This document shows, piece by piece, positions 1-56,722 of a DNA stretch of 64,000 nt. Both the position numbers and the translations under genes were made by a program. Under the pieces are notes generated by a model, which saw only the letters and a program-made list of their open reading frames with translations, was not told where the DNA came from and did no database searches. Numbering within the stretch: the first letter of the stretch is position 1; each line of letters starts with the position of its first letter. Source of the stretch: Stenotrophomonas cyclobalanopsidis (GTDB lineage: Bacteria; Pseudomonadota; Gammaproteobacteria; Xanthomonadales; Xanthomonadaceae); contig NZ_VYKI01000003.1 in the NCBI RefSeq assembly GCF_008710035.1, forward strand, positions 62,001 to 126,000, read 5' to 3'.

Positions 1-213
1 CGCCACTTCCGGCACCGCCTGACGGTGTCGCTGGGCGACTACTGGCAGGAAGGGTTCGGCAGTTCGCTCATCCCCACGGTGGCCTATCGCCACGAGTGGC
101 AGTTCGGCCAGGGCAGGATCTTCGAATACGGCGTGAGCTGGTCGCGGCCGGTCTACGACGGCCAACGTGAACGTCACATCGGCTTCGATGCCGCGCTGCG
201 CTGGGGAGAGTGA
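1..213 (+). CDS. pgaA: PgaA outer-membrane PNAG export porin, C-terminal end only (partial)
   Basis: The last 70 codons of a gene that begins before the window. PgaA (HmsH) is a TPR-plus-beta-barrel protein that exports partially deacetylated poly-beta-1,6-N-acetylglucosamine through the outer membrane. The visible stretch alternates hydrophobic and aromatic/charged residues and has a short, strand-rich end, as expected for the last barrel strands, although it ends in Trp-Gly-Glu rather than the usual terminal Phe. The identification rests mainly on position: the stop codon lies one base before pgaB and the order pgaA-B-C-D is the known operon order. Confidence 0.85.
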   Translation, partial: RHFRHRLTVSLGDYWQEGFGSSLIPTVAYRHEWQFGQGRIFEYGVSWSRPVYDGQRERHIGFDAALRWGE

Positions 214-214
214 G

Positions 215-2110
215 ATGGAACGGATGCTTCGAAACCTGATGACCGTGCTGCTGCTGGGGCTGGTGCTGCTGGCCCTGCCGGCCGCTGCCCAGGAGCGCGA
301 CCTGGATTCGGCCGACAACGGCCTGCTGGTGCTGAGCTACCACGACATCCGCGACGATGTGCGTGAGAAGGGCGATGCCGATGCCTACGCGGTCAGCACG
401 CAGAACTTCGCTGCGCACCTGGACTGGCTCAGCGCGCACGGCTACCACCCGATCGCGCTGTCGCAGCTGATCAAGGCCTCGCGCGGCGAAGCCCAGCTGC
501 CGCCGCGGCCGGTCCTGCTGACCTTCGATGATGGCCTGCGCAGCGTCTACAGCCGCGTCTACCCGCTGCTGCGCGCCTACAACTACCCGGCGCTGGTGGC
601 GGTGATCACCGACTACGTCGACATGGCCCCGGGCCGCACCATCGACTACGGCTACCGCCCGTTCGGCCACGATGATTTCCTGACCTGGCACCAGCTGCGG
701 GAGATGCAGTCCAGCGGCCTGATCGAACTGGCCAGCCATACCGACAACCAGCACCATGGCGTGCAGTCCAACCCGCAGGGCAACCAGACCCCGGCGGTGA
801 TCACCCGCGCCTACGATCCGCAGACCCAGCACTATGAGACCGCGCAACAATACGAAAAGCGCCTGCGCGACGATCTCGCGCTGAGCGTCAAGCGCATCCA
901 GAAGGAACTCGGCGTCACCCCGAAGGCAATCGTTTGGCCGTATGCGGCCTACAACAAGCTGAGCAACGACATCGCCGAACAACTGGGCATGCCGGTGTCG
1001 TTCGACCTGGAAGGCCGCAGCACGCCGGTCACCTCGGACCTGCACGGCCTGGCCCGCCTGCTGGTGACGAACAATCCGAACGTCAGCTCGTTGGCCTTCG
1101 AACTGCGCCGCAATGTCAGCCTGGATGGCACGCGTGCGCTGCAGATCGACATGGATGCGGTCTACGACCCGGACCCGGCACAGCTGGCCCGCAACCTCGA
1201 CAGGCTGATCGACCGCGTCAAGAAGGTGGGCCCGACCCACGTCTATCTGCAGGCCTTCGCCGACCCCGATGGCAACAACACGGCCGACGCGCTGTACTTC
1301 CCCAACCGGCACATGCCGATGCGCGCGGACCTGTTCAACCGCGTGGCCTGGCAGCTGAAGACCCGTGCCGGGGTGAAGGTCTATGCCTGGCTGCCGGTGC
1401 TCGGCTATGAGCTGCCGGATGCGGCGCAGCGCACCGCGCTGGGCATCGCCAGCCCGGAACGCGACGGCATGTACCGGCTGGACTTCACCAAGCCGCAGGC
1501 GCGGCAGATCATCAAGGATATCTACGAAGACCTGGCGATCAATTCGTACTTCGAAGGCCTGCTGTTCCATGACGACGCCTACGTGCGCGACACCGAACTG
1601 GCCCAGCTGCCGCAGGAAGGCGCCGATGGCGGCCGTACCCAGGCGCTGATCGACTTCACCCTGGAGCTGCGCGACACCGCCCAGCGCTGGCGGCCGAAGC
1701 TGGGCACCGTGCGCAACCTGTACGCGCAGCCGGTACTGGAGCCGCAGAGCGCCAGCTGGTTCGCCCAGCGCCTGGACCTGTTCAACCAGGCCTATGACCG
1801 CACCGCGCTGATGGCGATGCCGTGGATGGAAGGCAGCAAGCACCCCGAGCGTTGGCTGGACCGGCTGGTCACGGCGGTGCGCGCGCACGATCCCGACCTG
1901 AAGCACACGATGTTCGAGCTGCAGACCGTGGACTGGCGCACGCAGACGCCGATCAGCGGCCAGCGCCTGCGCGCGCAGGTCCGCCGGCTGCAGGCACAGG
2001 GCGTGCGCCATTTCGCGTGGTACCCGGACGATTTCATCGCCGACAAGCCATCGACCACGGACGCGCGCGCCGCGATGTCCGCGCGCAACTTCCCGTACCC
2101 GGAGAAGTGA
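215..2110 (+). CDS. pgaB: Poly-beta-1,6-N-acetyl-D-glucosamine N-deacetylase PgaB
   Basis: A 631-aa periplasmic enzyme that removes some acetyl groups from PNAG so that the polymer can leave through PgaA. An N-terminal signal segment (about residues 8-25) is followed by a polysaccharide-deacetylase (CE4) domain with TFDDG at about 103-107 and metal-ligand histidines near 175-181. The second half is the C-terminal glycoside-hydrolase-type domain of PgaB/HmsF. The start at 215 is preceded by a GGGGAG ribosome site and lies next to the pgaA stop; an in-frame ATG at 167 lies inside pgaA and was not used. Unlike E. coli PgaB, no lipobox cysteine is present in the first 30 residues, so this form is probably soluble or anchored differently. 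Confidence 0.95.
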   Translation: MERMLRNLMTVLLLGLVLLALPAAAQERDLDSADNGLLVLSYHDIRDDVREKGDADAYAVSTQNFAAHLDWLSAHGYHPIALSQLIKASRGEAQLPPRPVLLTFDDGLRSVYSRVYPLLRAYNYPALVAVITDYVDMAPGRTIDYGYRPFGHDDFLTWHQLREMQSSGLIELASHTDNQHHGVQSNPQGNQTPAVITRAYDPQTQHYETAQQYEKRLRDDLALSVKRIQKELGVTPKAIVWPYAAYNKLSNDIAEQLGMPVSFDLEGRSTPVTSDLHGLARLLVTNNPNVSSLAFELRRNVSLDGTRALQIDMDAVYDPDPAQLARNLDRLIDRVKKVGPTHVYLQAFADPDGNNTADALYFPNRHMPMRADLFNRVAWQLKTRAGVKVYAWLPVLGYELPDAAQRTALGIASPERDGMYRLDFTKPQARQIIKDIYEDLAINSYFEGLLFHDDAYVRDTELAQLPQEGADGGRTQALIDFTLELRDTAQRWRPKLGTVRNLYAQPVLEPQSASWFAQRLDLFNQAYDRTALMAMPWMEGSKHPERWLDRLVTAVRAHDPDLKHTMFELQTVDWRTQTPISGQRLRAQVRRLQAQGVRHFAWYPDDFIADKPSTTDARAAMSARNFPYPEK

Positions 2111-2111
2111 C

Positions 2112-3365
2112 ATGGACATGAGCCCCTGGCTGTATGCCCTGTTCCAGTTCGCCTTCTTCTACCCGATGGTGATGGCGTTCTTCTGGATGTCAGGCGGCCT
2201 GTACTACTTCTTCCGTCGCGAGCGGAAGTCGCGACCGCGCAACGATCCGCCGCCGATGGACAGCTACCCGTTCGCCACGCTGCTGATTCCCTGTCACAAC
2301 GAAACGGACAACCTGGACGACACTATCGGCGCGGCACTGGCGCAGCGCTATCCGGATTTCGAAGTGATCGCCATCAATGATGGCAGCAGCGACGACACCG
2401 GCGCCCGCCTGGACGCGCTGGCCGCCCTGCACCCGCGCCTGCGCGTGGTGCACCTGGACCGCAACCTGGGCAAGGCCAACGCGCTGCGCATGGGCGCCCT
2501 CGCCTCTCGCTCGGAGTACCTGGTGTGCATCGACGGCGATGCGATGCTGGAAGAGTTCGCCATGCACTGGATGGTCTGGCACCTGACCAGCGGCCCGCGC
2601 GTGGGCGCGGTGACCGGCAACCCGCGCATCCGCAACCGCTCCACCCTGCTCGGCCGCCTGCAGGTGGCCGAGTTCTCCTCGATCATCGGCATGATCAAGC
2701 GCGCGCAGCGCGTGTACGGGCGCATCTTCACCGTGTCCGGGGTGATCGCCGCATTCCGCCGCACGGCCCTGCACCGCATCGGCTACTGGGCCGACGACAT
2801 GGTGACCGAGGACATCGACATCAGCTGGCGCCTGCAGCTGGACCACTGGGACATCCGCTACGAACCCAACGCGCTGTGCTTCATCCTGATGCCGGAAACG
2901 CTGAAGGGACTGTGGCGGCAGCGCCTGCGCTGGGCGCAGGGCGGCGTGGAAGTGCTGCTGCGGCACGGCGCATCGTTGTTCAGCTGGCGCAAGCGACGCA
3001 TGTGGGGCGTGCTGCTGGAGTACATCCTCAGCGTGTTCTGGGCGTACACCATGCTGCTGATCGTGGTGCTGTGGGCGCTGGGCAAGTTCATGCCGCTGCC
3101 GGCCCCGCTGTACATCGAGACGCTGCTGCCGCAATGGCACGGCGTGATCCTGGCGCTGGTCTGCCTGCTGCAGTTCGCCAGCAGCCTGATCATCGACCGC
3201 CGTTACGAAACCCACATTGGACGCAACTACTTCTGGGTCATCTGGTACCCGATGGCGTACTGGTTGATCAGCCTGTTCACCACCCTGGTGGCGCTGCCGA
3301 AGACGCTGTTCAAGCACCGCGGCAAGCGTGCCACCTGGGTCAGCCCTGACAGGGGGATCCGATGA
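2112..3365 (+). CDS. pgaC: Poly-beta-1,6-N-acetylglucosamine synthase PgaC (GT2)
   Basis: A 417-aa inner-membrane family-2 glycosyltransferase that polymerises UDP-GlcNAc into PNAG. There is one N-terminal membrane span. The cytoplasmic GT2 domain shows the NDGSSDD substrate motif, the DGDA (DxD-type) motif, TEDID, and the QRLRWAQGG (QxxRW) processivity motif; several C-terminal membrane spans follow. The gene starts one base after the pgaB stop, and a second ATG two codons downstream is a possible start. Its TGA overlaps the pgaD ATG (ATGA), consistent with coupled synthesis of the PgaC-PgaD synthase. Confidence 0.96.
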   Translation: MDMSPWLYALFQFAFFYPMVMAFFWMSGGLYYFFRRERKSRPRNDPPPMDSYPFATLLIPCHNETDNLDDTIGAALAQRYPDFEVIAINDGSSDDTGARLDALAALHPRLRVVHLDRNLGKANALRMGALASRSEYLVCIDGDAMLEEFAMHWMVWHLTSGPRVGAVTGNPRIRNRSTLLGRLQVAEFSSIIGMIKRAQRVYGRIFTVSGVIAAFRRTALHRIGYWADDMVTEDIDISWRLQLDHWDIRYEPNALCFILMPETLKGLWRQRLRWAQGGVEVLLRHGASLFSWRKRRMWGVLLEYILSVFWAYTMLLIVVLWALGKFMPLPAPLYIETLLPQWHGVILALVCLLQFASSLIIDRRYETHIGRNYFWVIWYPMAYWLISLFTTLVALPKTLFKHRGKRATWVSPDRGIR

Positions 3366-3850
3366 ACGCCGTACGTGACACGACCGGGAAGAAGTCGTCC
3401 AGCCGCTTTGATTCGCGGTTGATCCAGAAGTCGCGCCAGCAGCCGCGCCTGCAGCGCACGGCCTGGGGCTTCGTGACCCTGGCGTTCTGGGGTTTCTACT
3501 TCTACCTGTGGGCACCGCTGGTGACCCTGGTGTCCTGGCTGCTGGGCGGGCACCTGGCCTACGTGCAGCTATACCAGCACAGCCAGCACGTGGATCCGTT
3601 CGTGATGATCGCGCTGCCGGTCATCCTGGTCTGCTGCTCGCTGCTGCTGATCGCCTGGGCGGAATACAACCGCTACCGGTTTGGCGGCAAGGAACGGCGC
3701 GCACCGCGCGAGGATTCCAGCCGCGAGGACATCGCCCGCGCACTGGGTGCGAGCGATGCGCTGGCCGAGCAGCTGATGCATGCGAAGGCAGTGACACTGC
3801 ACATGGATGACAACGCACGGCCGGTGGGGATGACGCGGCAGCCGCTGTAG
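3362..3850 (+). CDS. pgaD: PNAG synthase accessory subunit PgaD
   Basis: A 162-aa protein with two central hydrophobic spans (roughly residues 38-60 and 78-100) separated by a short loop, and a charged C-terminal tail, matching PgaD/HmsS. In E. coli, PgaC and PgaD together form the active synthase, which responds allosterically to cyclic di-GMP. The gene overlaps the pgaC stop by 4 nt and is the last gene of the operon. No clear T-tract terminator follows; the downstream gap is filled with hairpin repeats. Confidence 0.9.
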   Translation: MNAVRDTTGKKSSSRFDSRLIQKSRQQPRLQRTAWGFVTLAFWGFYFYLWAPLVTLVSWLLGGHLAYVQLYQHSQHVDPFVMIALPVILVCCSLLLIAWAEYNRYRFGGKERRAPREDSSREDIARALGASDALAEQLMHAKAVTLHMDDNARPVGMTRQPL

Positions 3851-4386
3851 TAAGGGCCAGGTATTTTTTGCAGGGCTTGCAGCCCTGCACCTGCGGTAGT
3901 GCCGGCCGCTGGCCGGCAACCTCACGATCAAGAGCAGCATTCCTTGGGATGGCGGGGCGGTGGCTGCCGGTGGGTGCCGACCGTTGGTCGGCACATCTGT
4001 CAGATATCGAATGAATTCATACGTGTCGACCAAGGTCGACACCTACCAAAGCAGAACGCCGTTCCGACAACTCGCAGGAAACTGTCGAAGGCGGGGTGGG
4101 TCCGGTTGAGGCGGCGTGAGCCGCATGGATGCGGCGACCGAGCTTACATGGGTGAGGGCGCTTTGCTTGCGAAGCACTGCTTCGCAAGCGCCCGAACGCA
4201 CAGCCGCCAGCGGCTGGGCCGGGCCCCGGAGGGGGACTTGCAGCGTCCCCCTCAACTGGACCCACCCCGCCATCCCACGGAATGCCAGCTGTTGCTGTTG
4301 CTTTTGCCGGCCAGCGGCCGGCACTACCGGCAGGTGCAGGGCTGCAAGCCCTGCAAACAAGACCCTCATCCACGCATGGCGTTGAT
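3851..4386. repeat. Non-coding repeat region between pgaD and the LysR gene
   Basis: 536 bp without a credible gene. It contains an 8-bp-stem hairpin at 3870-3888 (GCAGGGCT/AGCCCTGC), a forward GTAG-headed SMAG hairpin at 3896-3920, one with a GTGG head at 3970-3994, and reverse ones at 4023-4046, 4306-4327 and 4368-4390. A second copy of the GCAGGGCT hairpin lies at 4336-4354 in opposite orientation. A 12-bp perfect inverted repeat with a 1-nt loop lies at 4165-4189. Most of the region (4023-4354) is one copy of a composite element described separately. Predicted ORFs here are products of the repeat. Confidence 0.85.
4023..4354 (+). repeat. Composite SMAG-flanked repeat element, copy A
   Basis: A long modular repeat. 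In order it has a reverse SMAG (4023-4046), ACCTACCAAAGCAGA, a CGCAG...TGTCGAAGGCGGGGTGGGTCCGG arm (about 4073-4107), GTGAGCCGCATGGATGCGGC, a variable middle, an inverted arm CCCCCTCAACTGGACCCACC (about 4247-4266), a GCTGTTGCT segment, and the GCAGGGCTGCAAGCCCTGC hairpin. The same modules in the same order occur at 31839-32079 on the other strand. The inverted arms could fold into a long cruciform. Confidence 0.75.
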
Positions 4387-22232: not shown

Positions 22233-22436
22233 TTATTCGCCGGAATTTTCACTTCCGGTGCTGCCGGCTTCATCACCACGCTGGATGCGCTGGTAGATCT
22301 CTTCGCGATGCACAGCAACGTCCTTCGGCGCGGTGATACCGATGCGCACCTGGTTGCCCTTGACGCCGAGCACGGTGACGCTCACCGAGTCTCCGATCAT
22401 CAGGGTTTCGCCGACGCGGCGAGTCAAGATCAACAT
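22233..22436 (-). CDS. csrA: Carbon storage regulator CsrA
   Basis: A 67-aa RNA-binding dimer that controls translation and stability of many mRNAs by binding GGA motifs; in E. coli it represses pgaA. The protein starts [20 protein letters not shown] and keeps the RNA-contact residues in LTRR and the [10 protein letters not shown] stretch (R44 region). The ATG has GGAG 9 nt upstream. It ends in a variable acidic tail ([10 protein letters not shown]) like other xanthomonad versions. It follows alaS and precedes tRNA-Ser. Confidence 0.98.
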
Positions 22437-31838: not shown

Positions 31839-32079
31839 GCAGGGCTTGCAGCCCTGCACCCGCAGAAGCCGACGCCAGAGCAACAGCAGAAGCTGGTTTC
31901 CTGACGAGAGGCGGGGTGGGCCCGGATGAGGGGGACGCCGTAAACCCGTCCTTGGGGGCTTGGTCGCCGCATCCATGCGGCTCACCCCCCCTCAACCGGA
32001 CCCACCCCGCCTTCGACACATTTCTGCGGGCTGTCGGAAAGGCGCTCTGCTTTGGTAGGTGCCGACCGTTGGTCGGCAC
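31839..32079 (-). repeat. Composite SMAG-flanked repeat element, copy B
   Basis: Read on the minus strand it repeats the module order of copy A: SMAG, ACCTACCAAAGCAGA, TTCCGACA, CGCAG, TGTCGAAGGCGGGGTGGGTC, GTGAGCCGCATGGATGCGGC, GACC, a shorter variable middle, CCCCCTCA with a CCCACCCCGCC arm, GCTGTTGCT and the GCAGGGCTGCAAGCCCTGC hairpin. The middle is about 80 bp shorter than in copy A. Confidence 0.75.
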
Positions 32080-32141: not shown

Positions 32142-33452
32142 TTACCACTCGGGCAGTTTTTCCGGCAGCAGGGCGCGGATCGGGCCGCCGTCGGGGCTGG
32201 CGGCCAGCTTCTCCGCCTCGGCGATCGGGATGTCGACCTGCAGCAGCCAGCCGTCTTCGTCGGCCGCTTCGCTGCGGATCACCTCCAGCTGGTGCAGGCG
32301 CGCGCGCAGGCGGCCGGCGCTGGGCGGCAGGCGCAGTTCGCCGCTGACGTGCTGCAGGCCCAGGCGCTTGCCCAGCACGCTCTGCAGCAGTTCCAGACCT
32401 TCGCCGTCACGGGCGGAGATCCAGACCCGCTCGCGGCGCGACGGATCGGGGATGCCGTCCTGGCCGTCGTGGCGCACTTCAGCACCCTCGATGCGGTCGA
32501 TCTTGTTGAACACCAGCAGCTGCGGCAGGTCACCGGCACCGACGGCGGTCAGGACTTCGTCGACCTGGGCGATGCGCTCCTCGCGGTGCGAATCGGCAGC
32601 GTCGACCAGGTGCAGCAGGAAGTCGGCCTCGCGCGCTTCGGAGAGGGTCGAGCGGAACGCGGCGACCAGGTCATGCGGCAGATCGCGCACGAAGCCCACG
32701 GTATCGGCCAACACGACGCTGCCACCGGGCACGGCGATGCGGCGCACCGTCGGGTCCAGGGTGGCAAACAGCTGGTCGGCAGCGTACGCCTCGGCACCGG
32801 TCAGGGCATTGAACAGGGTCGACTTGCCGGCATTGGTATAGCCGACCAGGGCCACGCGCGGCAGCTCGCTGCGCAGGCGCGCGCGGCGCATCTGGGTGCG
32901 CTGCGTTTCAACCTTTTCCAGCCGCTTCTGCAACTGCTCCACCCGCTTCTGCAGCAGGCGGCGATCGGTTTCCAGCTGGGTTTCACCCGGGCCGCGCAGG
33001 CCGATCGAACCGCCGCGCTGACGCTCAAGGTGGGTCCAGCCGCGCACCAGCCGCGTGGCCAGGTGGCGCAGCTGCGCCAGCTCGACCTGCAGCTTGCCTT
33101 CGTGGCTGTGCGCACGCTGGGCAAAGATGTCCAGGATCAGGCCGGTACGGTCGATCACCCGGCGCTCCAGGAACCGTTCCAGGTTGCGTTCCTGGCCCGG
33201 GCTCAGCGAATGGTTGACCAGGATCAGGTCCGCGCCGGTTGCGTCAGCCGCAGCCTTGATCTCGTCCAGCTTGCCGCTGCCGATCAGGGTCGACGGGTTG
33301 GGACGGTCCAGGCGCGCGGTGATGGTGGCGGCGATGCTGGCCCCTGCCGAGCGGGCCAGATCACCGAACTCTTCCAGCACGTCTTCTTCCAGCTTGCCGA
33401 AATGGGGCTGGATCAACAGGGCGTTTTCGCCCTTTTTCGAGCGGTCAAACAT
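32142..33452 (-). CDS. hflX: Ribosome-associated GTPase HflX
   Basis: A 436-aa GTPase that splits stalled ribosomes under stress. The N-terminal HflX domain contains LDRPNPSTLIGSGKLDEIK, then a coiled linker, and the G domain with GYTNAGKST (G1), DTVGFVRDLPH (G3) and NKIDRIEG (G4). It begins 14 bp after hfq, forming the conserved miaA-hfq-hflX order. Confidence 0.97.
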   Translation of the reverse strand: MFDRSKKGENALLIQPHFGKLEEDVLEEFGDLARSAGASIAATITARLDRPNPSTLIGSGKLDEIKAAADATGADLILVNHSLSPGQERNLERFLERRVIDRTGLILDIFAQRAHSHEGKLQVELAQLRHLATRLVRGWTHLERQRGGSIGLRGPGETQLETDRRLLQKRVEQLQKRLEKVETQRTQMRRARLRSELPRVALVGYTNAGKSTLFNALTGAEAYAADQLFATLDPTVRRIAVPGGSVVLADTVGFVRDLPHDLVAAFRSTLSEAREADFLLHLVDAADSHREERIAQVDEVLTAVGAGDLPQLLVFNKIDRIEGAEVRHDGQDGIPDPSRRERVWISARDGEGLELLQSVLGKRLGLQHVSGELRLPPSAGRLRARLHQLEVIRSEAADEDGWLLQVDIPIAEAEKLAASPDGGPIRALLPEKLPEW

Positions 33453-33466
33453 TCACCGCTCCGGAA

Positions 33467-33745
33467 TCATTCGTCTGCTTCATCACCCGCCTGACCATCA
33501 TTGTCACCTGACTGCACGTAGCCACCACCCGGCCCGACCTTCACGTTACGCGCCGGCACGACGGTGGAAATGGCGTGCTTGTAGACCATCTGGCTCACGG
33601 TGTTGCGCAGCAGGACCACGAACTGATCGAACGATTCGATCGTGCCCTGCAGCTTGATGCCGTTGACCAGGTACACCGAAACCGGCACGCGTTCGCGCCG
33701 CAGTGCGTTCAAGAAAGGATCCTGCAGCGATTGCCCCTTGGACAT
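33467..33745 (-). CDS. hfq: RNA chaperone Hfq
   Basis: A 92-aa Sm-like protein. Sm1 includes [20 protein letters not shown] with the proximal-face QD pair, and Sm2 includes [10 protein letters not shown]. The protein forms a hexamer that pairs small RNAs with mRNAs. The C-terminal tail is short, glycine-rich then acidic ([12 protein letters not shown]). Confidence 0.98.
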
Positions 33746-36396: not shown

Positions 36397-36510
36397 ATCC
36401 ACGCATGGCGTGGATCTACCGTGTCGACCAAGATCGACACCTACCGAAAGCCGTGCCGACCAACGGTCGGCACCCACCAACAGTTGCAGGAATCTGTCAG
36501 AGGCAGGGCG
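36397..36510. repeat. SMAG cluster and partial composite element
   Basis: Three reverse SMAGs follow one another: 36397-36419 (ATCCACGC arms), 36421-36444 (GTGTCGAC arms) and 36453-36477 (GTGCCGAC arms, with a degenerate CCAC instead of CTAC). The following bases, GCAGGAATCTGTCAGAGGC (about 36485-36503), resemble the second module of the composite element, so this is probably a truncated copy. Confidence 0.75.
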
Positions 36511-36532
36511 CAGCCTTGCCGAGAGAAAACCC

Positions 36533-56546: not shown

Positions 56547-56722
56547 TGGCGGCCGGGCCTGCGGCCCGGCACCCGCTGGATCAACTGCAACGGCAATGGC
56601 AACCGCAGAAGCCGGGGTTCCGTGGGATGGCGGGGTTCCGGGCGCTGATGGTGGGTGCCGACCGTTGGTCGGCACGGGCTCTGACCCTGACTGCTCTGGT
56701 AGGTGTCGACCTTGGTCGACAC
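56547..56722. repeat. Repeat-rich gap between the peptidase and pit genes
   Basis: Degenerate hairpin GCCGGGC/GGCCCGGC at 56547-56572; a fragment of the composite element at about 56581-56640 (GCAGAAGCCGGGGTTCCGTG, then GGATGGCGGGGT); a GTGG-headed SMAG at 56651-56675; and a forward SMAG at 56699-56722 (GTAGGTGTCGACC core). No gene is credible here. Confidence 0.8.

Follow-up and report, generated by a model that had tools for sequence, protein, structure and literature searches.

A TwoAYGGAY-related hairpin element amplified in a Stenotrophomonas genome and its candidate role as a dispersed RsmA decoy

The TwoAYGGAY RNA class (Rfam RF01731) has CsrA motifs and a tandem GA, its external stem is poorly conserved (excerpt of PMC4333381), and its reported occurrence covers the human gut, Gammaproteobacteria and Clostridiales (excerpt of PMC2864571). 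Because CsrA motifs had been given for the class in PMC4333381, its binding by CsrA is a prior prediction. The SELEX consensus for CsrA is RUACARGGAUGU, with six-nucleotide loops and AC/GU pairing in 44 of 55 ligands and no more than four contiguous pairs in most hairpins (excerpt of PMC7652899). For Xanthomonas, a 2014 paper reported no rsmB homologue and spoke of an "as-yet-undiscovered mechanism" of RsmA antagonism (excerpt of PMC3937308). RsmU, found in that genus in 2020, is an RsmA-sequestering RNA of Xanthomonas campestris with several GGA motifs; it comes from a single locus, where it is processed from the 3' end of one mRNA, and is reported to be limited to Xanthomonas (excerpt of PMC7694677).

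The element described here is a diverged, amplified relative of TwoAYGGAY. It is a 102-bp hairpin with a 62-nt core, and its consensus is a three-way junction composed of a 25-bp outer stem (P1), two hairpins (P2 and P3) and a 26-51/27-50 pairing at the base of P2. The loops of P2 and P3 are ANGGAN closed by C-G, the CsrA/RsmA consensus. By covariation it resembles TwoAYGGAY in having two hairpins with loops of the A-Y-GGA-Y type, although energy folds rarely show both. It shares with that class the tandem G-A, the poorly conserved external stem and, in the alignment, the AG that precedes the second hairpin and the CGG..CGUC that follows it. It differs in that the second loop is ANGGAN rather than AYGGAY, in being present in tens of copies per genome, paired and REP-framed, and in scoring below the family cut-off here. 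Like CsrB, RsmY and RsmZ, it has, by motif and covariation, GGA-loop hairpins that would be capable of binding a CsrA dimer, but it offers two sites at each of about 90 loci rather than many sites on one RNA, and, unlike for those RNAs, we know of no promoter or GacA control for it. RsmU and the element both have several GGA motifs and occur in the same bacterial order. The SMAG/REP/BIME repeats of S. maltophilia are intergenic, high-copy and mosaic, and REPs frame many units of the element; REPs, however, are 20–40 bp long with a GTAG/GTGG tag, whereas the 62-nt core lies in a tagless 102-bp hairpin, and the element is not itself a REP (SMAG) member, as no such tag was seen by eye at the core ends. 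Among MITE features, inverted ends are present; by eye, the empty sites that were read gave no sign of a target duplication, and no cognate enzyme was identified. In the open-licence literature, as far as its text was available, no paper linking CsrA with such repeats was found.

Two copies of a composite unit in the window

The window is the 64-kb stretch of DNA that was analyzed (contig 23, positions 62001-126000), and the genome searched comprises 4.22 Mb in 53 contigs. Cores were scored with a 62-column model, R1. The features are as follows, in window coordinates.

4023-4354, plus strand: copy A, a REP-to-REP composite unit
4023-4042, no strand assigned: REP, GTGTCGACC..GGTCGACAC, at the 5' end of copy A
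4090-4271, plus strand: hairpin element of copy A, 182 bp (5' arm 4090-4114, 3' arm 4247-4271)
4110-4167, plus strand: match of copy A to core model R1, 42.8 bits
4120-4135, plus strand: P2 sequence of copy A, with AUGGAU at 4125-4130, unformed in the minimum-energy fold of copy A
4152-4235, plus strand: 84-nt palindromic insert that replaces 4 nt and splits P3 of copy A, from by-eye comparison with canonical copies
4336-4354, no strand assigned: terminal palindrome GCAGGGC..GCCCTGC of copy A
3870-3957, minus strand: decayed inverted partner of copy A
31839-32079, minus strand: copy B, a REP-to-REP composite unit
31910-32011, minus strand: hairpin element of copy B, the canonical 102 bp
31930-31991, minus strand: core of copy B, R1 88.2 bits, with P2 loop AUGGAU (31971-31976) and P3 loop AAGGAC (31948-31953)
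31839-31857, no strand assigned: terminal palindrome GCAGGGC..GCCCTGC of copy B
32059-32079, no strand assigned: SM1-class REP of copy B (class sequence from an excerpt of PMC3686654)
56552-56636, minus strand: remnant with the tail module and the start of the outer stem, without core
36397-36519, no strand assigned: REP cluster without core
22281-22436, minus strand: csrA/rsmA domain, the presumed binding protein and the single match in the genome

The initial annotation had described two copies on opposite strands with a common module order and inverted GGCGGGGTGGG arms, and this description was borne out; the ends that it gave for both copies fall exactly on REP-like palindromes. The R1 search finds copies A and B as the only core matches in the window, and the 11-mer arm alone, with up to two mismatches, is not enriched there (61 found versus 75.4 expected). 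In canonical copies the 5' flank often has a REP followed by a GACAG..CTGTC inverted repeat, and the 3' flank has ATCCCACGGAATGCC followed by a TTGACG-rich tail that frequently ends in GCAGGGC..GCCCTGC. The two centres, taken at first to be different, are related: copy B is intact, and copy A departs from the canonical element in its second loop, where 84 nt replace 4 nt. The suggested loss of cargo is a poor fit, since copy A gained an insert. Copy A is probably damaged and defective, because its energy fold has no ANGGA loop. Among the fragments that had been proposed, 3870-3957 is a decayed inverted partner (88% identity to the 3' part of copy A), and 56552-56636 is a similar remnant, which adjoins REPs at 56655-56675 and 56703-56722. 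The REP cluster at 36397-36519 contains, by eye, no more than a short segment like the 5' flank. RNA folding against shuffles gave z scores of -7.61 for copy A and -7.08 for copy B, which, together with 92 core matches genome-wide, upholds the view that the arrangement goes beyond chance adjacency.

Both copies have identifiable neighbors. Copy B sits in sense orientation 3' of hfq-hflX (window 32142-33745), and copy A sits in sense orientation 3' of pgaB-pgaC-pgaD (window 167-3850), the genes being NCBIfam matches above cut-off (equivalogs in the case of pga). Like pga, hfq is a CsrA target in E. coli. A main target of CsrA in that organism is pgaABCD (excerpt of PMC7652899).

Covariation of the fold and conservation of the GGA loops

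Alignment A1 holds 36 of 46 pattern matches from the host genome; left outside were three without the element structure, three with an indel, two affected by assembly noise and two duplicates (L010, L020). In A1, 98.7% of cells are paired and 23 of 36 pairs show two-sided change, with a covariation of 0.527 versus 0.131 for shuffled alignments, and structures slid along the alignment are only 43-51% paired. Run without guidance, RNAalifold gives identical branching plus one A-U pair within the P2 loop; given this inner pair, the unbound P2 loop may be a UGGA tetraloop. The fold extends to other genomes (108 matches at 77 loci), where 98.6% of cells are paired and two-sided change is seen in 17 of 18 pairs. 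P3 alone has a covariation of 0.451 in the host and 0.378 in other genomes (shuffles 0.156 and 0.136), with two of five measures for P3 on A1 not above shuffles (180 and 499 of 500); the same number of measures was not above shuffles for the shorter alignment A2, which consists of 31 of the 36 A1 copies (136 and 467 of 500).

Covariation of P1 by itself could stem from copying of the arms at the DNA level. A process of this kind, quasi-palindrome correction by replication template switching, would keep the arms complementary and make the covariation uninformative about RNA, and the long, near-perfect, copy-specific arms agree with it. We regard it as quite improbable, as it gives no reason for two separate loops each to keep AxGGA while N varies freely, and it equally fails to predict covarying short P2, P3 and 26-51 pairs in a branched fold; these pairs covary, and not P1 alone.

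Single-sequence folding of 35 own copies (A1 minus one gapped row) gave a probability above 0.5 for P2 in 23 and for P3 in 1. The minimum-energy folds of 36 own copies have two GGA loops in 4, one in 19 and none in 13, and when two-motif cores from other genomes were folded alone, 72 of 99 formed loop 1 only, 17 both loops and 10 neither. When the first copy is folded by energy, the second-loop sequence GGACGU forms a helix with GCGUCC (columns 61-66 with 74-79). This rival helix was rejected as a conserved feature, with values of 0.027 versus 0.042 shuffled in the host and 0.163 versus 0.159 in other genomes. Because P3 covaries and the rival helix does not, P3 is trusted as the conserved form; a switch between the two is possible.

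The loop of P2 is AUGGAU in 36/36 own copies, a conservation that is partly built in because the search pattern contained that loop. P3 played no part in choosing these copies, and its loop is ANGGAN in 35 of 36, position by position A (36/36), N (T26 G6 A3 C1), G (35/36), G (36/36), A (36/36) and N (C32 T2 G1 A1), with a Y at the first N in 27/36. P3 fits the SELEX form, having three pairs, e.g. UAC/GUA, around ANGGAN above a bulge. Outside the genus, 85 matches at 63 loci read A84 N G85 G83 A85 in loop 1 and A84 N G84 G85 A85 in loop 2, so that the AxGGA letters are near-invariant and the N positions vary; some bias attaches to these counts because R1 includes both loops, and further unpaired positions are likewise conserved in the 85 rows. 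Two CANGGANG motifs are present in 73/92 own matches, one or both being missing in 19/92, and GCGCAGGACAGCGC occurs in five further matches. Nested palindromic inserts were seen in element loops at L003, L004, L006, L007 and L212. Five copies with a P2 insert were folded, and these have two extra hairpins with AGGAC and AGGACA loops, or with GGAC/GGAU closed by A-U. Other insert hairpins lack GGA in the A-GGA context, and the inserts disrupt the original loops.

We hold with high confidence that this structured element is related to TwoAYGGAY. RF01731 gives five hits in the genome at E ≤ 1, all on R1 matches and on the same strand, the best at 36.1 bits (E 8e-4) against a gathering cut-off of 43. 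One locus, L157, reached 44.0 bits with permissive filters and was unlisted in gathering mode, and none of the remaining loci of the 40 tested passes the gathering score. The tandem G-A (G29 A30 / G47 A48) is invariant in the 36 own copies and varies in other genera. At the curated Rfam thresholds the window yields only one tRNA, and L003, L004, L006, L212 and L167-L169 yield no match. Sub-threshold matches to several microRNA families, Ysr224, isrG and others were set aside as reflecting a GC-rich hairpin. On the strand opposite the element, Ysr224, a Yersinia sRNA, matches below threshold (24-30 bits versus a cut-off of 70) at 8 of 18 loci (L111, L112, L119, L120, L142, L145, L147, L150); it may be a relative of the element whose annotation was placed on the reverse strand.

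Copy number, mobility and genomic arrangement

R1 finds 92 core matches in the host genome (E ≤ 0.001; 150 of 4615 first-look candidates scored), and the copy A hairpin, used as a DNA query, has 108 matching pieces there. In censuses run under tighter filters, with only a small number of candidates scored in each genome, the carriers amount to 71/299 genomes and 23/85 genera of the order, and to 57/369 genomes and 50/271 genera of the class. Two congeneric genomes gave 117 and 112 matches, and in the order census, with its stricter filters, four members of the genus to which the host belongs had no match. Counts from draft genomes may be too low, because host contigs end in or beside hairpins (C8:15, C12:303503, C16:8, C21:17, C24:16, C25:7, C41:12), and C/G runs with N10 adjoin some copies (C9:4389, C13:51117, C24:26436). 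A record titled Bacillus subtilis SK7B5 (L212) has a pgaD 78% identical to that of the window plus a divergent element pair, which probably points to a wrong name or to contamination of the assembly.

Species differ in the presence or absence of whole blocks. At the copy B site, 267 bp of the window, both terminal palindromes included, correspond to 25 bp in G668. A divergent pair of the host (L269) occupies 575 bp versus 63 bp in G664, 567 versus 77 in G671 and 642 versus 308 in G013, and a second pair occupies 641-724 bp versus 167-296 bp in six genomes. R1 finds no match in those nine shorter stretches or in L246. At the site of the first pair, G667 (L285) likewise has no match, G668 and G040 each have one element, and G228 has two. 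The flanks of these sites have diverged, and the data do not separate gain from loss. The copy A site is unusable as a clean empty site, because the downstream sequence differs in other pgaD loci, and only L212 of 27 such loci has core matches.

With many copies, REP framing and whole blocks present or absent, the proposal of a duplicated or mobilized non-coding unit is supported. The modules are not in random order, since copies that have stems of the GGCGGGG type show a constant succession of flanks and core, and chance adjacency of REP hairpins is ruled out by the fixed order in the main stem classes together with the covarying centre. A single core type is borne by several outer stems, some with differing flanks. 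As to REP framing, counted in the 79 of 92 copies that have both 160-bp flanks, a REP-like palindrome lies within 160 bp upstream in 52/79 and downstream in 43/79; it frames many copies, but the data do not support it as the essence of the unit, 24/79 having neither. What is conserved is the core, which also occurs in other genera. The suggested linkage to RAYT transposases is circumstantial: the genome has seven Y1_Tnp-family matches, one with a stop, and two of the seven, at L032 and L037, have flanking REPs (SM1 and SM4, respectively) whose classes also occur upstream of the element.

These observations bear on a second alternative, a mobile palindrome acting at the DNA level (REP/BIME- or MITE-like), the single-stranded hairpins of which are recognized by an enzyme such as a RAYT, with no RNA role. 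Block presence and absence, the REP framing and the RAYT-family genes beside SM1 and SM4 REPs speak for it, as do the random orientation to genes, the weakness of P3 in energy folds and the arrangement of neighbors, which in the host are divergent in 21/21 cases less than 600 bp apart (42/92 matches) and in other loci in 26/31. We consider it rather unlikely, however, given that the core has no REP tag, that the loops fit a known RNA-protein consensus down to its variable positions and that other genera have the core with different flanks. One canonical 102-bp copy had no blastn match (E ≤ 1e-5) in phage and plasmid collections, so there is no sign of carriage by phages or plasmids.

The stems differ between copies to a degree that the cores do not. 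The comparison covers 40 copies taken as best-scoring rows, a selection that inflates core identity. In G604, ten cores have a mean identity of 96%, whereas their ten stems, 22-27 bp long with 22-26 paired, have a mean identity of 44%. The stems and cores are 45% and 88% identical in G617, where 3/10 are stemless by gap-free count, 59% and 87% identical in G380, and 88% and 96% identical in G523; private stems are thus not universal. In stem shuffles the mean was 1 bp, the 95th percentile 5 and the maximum 25 in 2000. Outside the genus, 67 of 82 elements have at least 12 bp beyond the core, with a median of 23 over all 82, and the 67 elements with such stems in the host fall into 11 groups, the largest of 24, 23 and 10. 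Possible origins of private stems are insertion into palindromes, building of the stem at insertion and gene conversion of the core.

Gene contexts were called with a codon-usage script. Of the 92 own matches, 85 lie outside called genes, and orientation was counted for 73, leaving aside 7 that overlap a called gene and 12 without a called gene on one side. A third alternative holds that the long stem ends or protects transcripts and that the GGA loops tune this effect locally through RsmA. Intergenic location and the position of both window copies 3' of an operon in sense favor it, as does the share of sites between convergent genes, 22/73 versus 7/46 adjacent gene pairs in the window. Sites between divergent genes (8/73 versus 6/46) are not depleted, so that convergent sites look favored without avoidance of divergent ones, and between tandem genes 21 cores read in sense and 22 in antisense, with no orientation bias. 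These last two counts, and the absence by eye of a T-run after the stems in 30 copies, argue against it, and we judge this explanation decidedly unlikely. A promoter between divergent pairs was also considered and is unlikely as a general rule, as core-to-core gaps are 52-72 bp in three loci of other genera. Tandem same-strand cores 10 or 44 bp apart (L104, L141, other genera) could form RNAs with four or six GGA loops.

A candidate dispersed decoy of RsmA

The element is real, covarying, strongly amplified and akin to an RNA family already described, and it may plausibly act as a decoy. Data back its covarying structure, its near-invariant AxGGA across genera, its high copy number, its divergent pairs and its presence or absence in blocks. 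As its best reading we tentatively favor a REP-framed TwoAYGGAY-type RNA element that would act as a dispersed decoy of RsmA. On the core strand, the outer stem of the consensus is free in sequence and fairly fixed in length, and the two hairpins each present a C-G-closed ANGGAN, which CsrA/RsmA prefers. Transcripts of the dispersed copies would bind RsmA dimers and jointly titrate RsmA, and the Stenotrophomonas element would spread within larger REP-framed units. Against this reading stand the lack of orientation bias towards neighboring genes, the rarity of both loops in single-sequence folds, the absence of an ANGGA loop from the fold of copy A, the own matches that lack one or both motifs and the weak association with csrA. 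That the element binds RsmA seems to us somewhat probable, a judgment lowered slightly in view of the energy folds; that a dispersed decoy is its main role is possible but doubtful.

Across genomes the association of csrA with the element is weak. csrA is present in 52/57 carriers versus 261/312 other genomes of the class (p 0.16) and, among well-complete genomes only, in 48/49 versus 232/265 (p 0.04). In one carrier (G492, 98% complete) no csrA was found.

A broader and bolder proposal, which we think unlikely, is that a self-spreading RNA element in many Gammaproteobacteria, including Stenotrophomonas, doubles as a dispersed CsrA/RsmA decoy. New copies would reuse a near-identical 62-nt core and gain a near-perfect stem of their own, about 25 bp long, perhaps because host sequence is duplicated as an inverted repeat at insertion, and the summed copies, rather than a dedicated Rsm sRNA, would set RsmA activity.

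With about 90 copies of a twin GGA loop, the bacterium may therefore hold many dispersed CsrA/RsmA decoys. A repeat with two CsrA-type motifs at about 90 loci is a concrete further candidate for an RsmA antagonist in xanthomonads. The element ties an RNA family of unknown function to the biology of repeats, and its copy-specific stems pose the question of how a conserved core enters new perfect palindromes.
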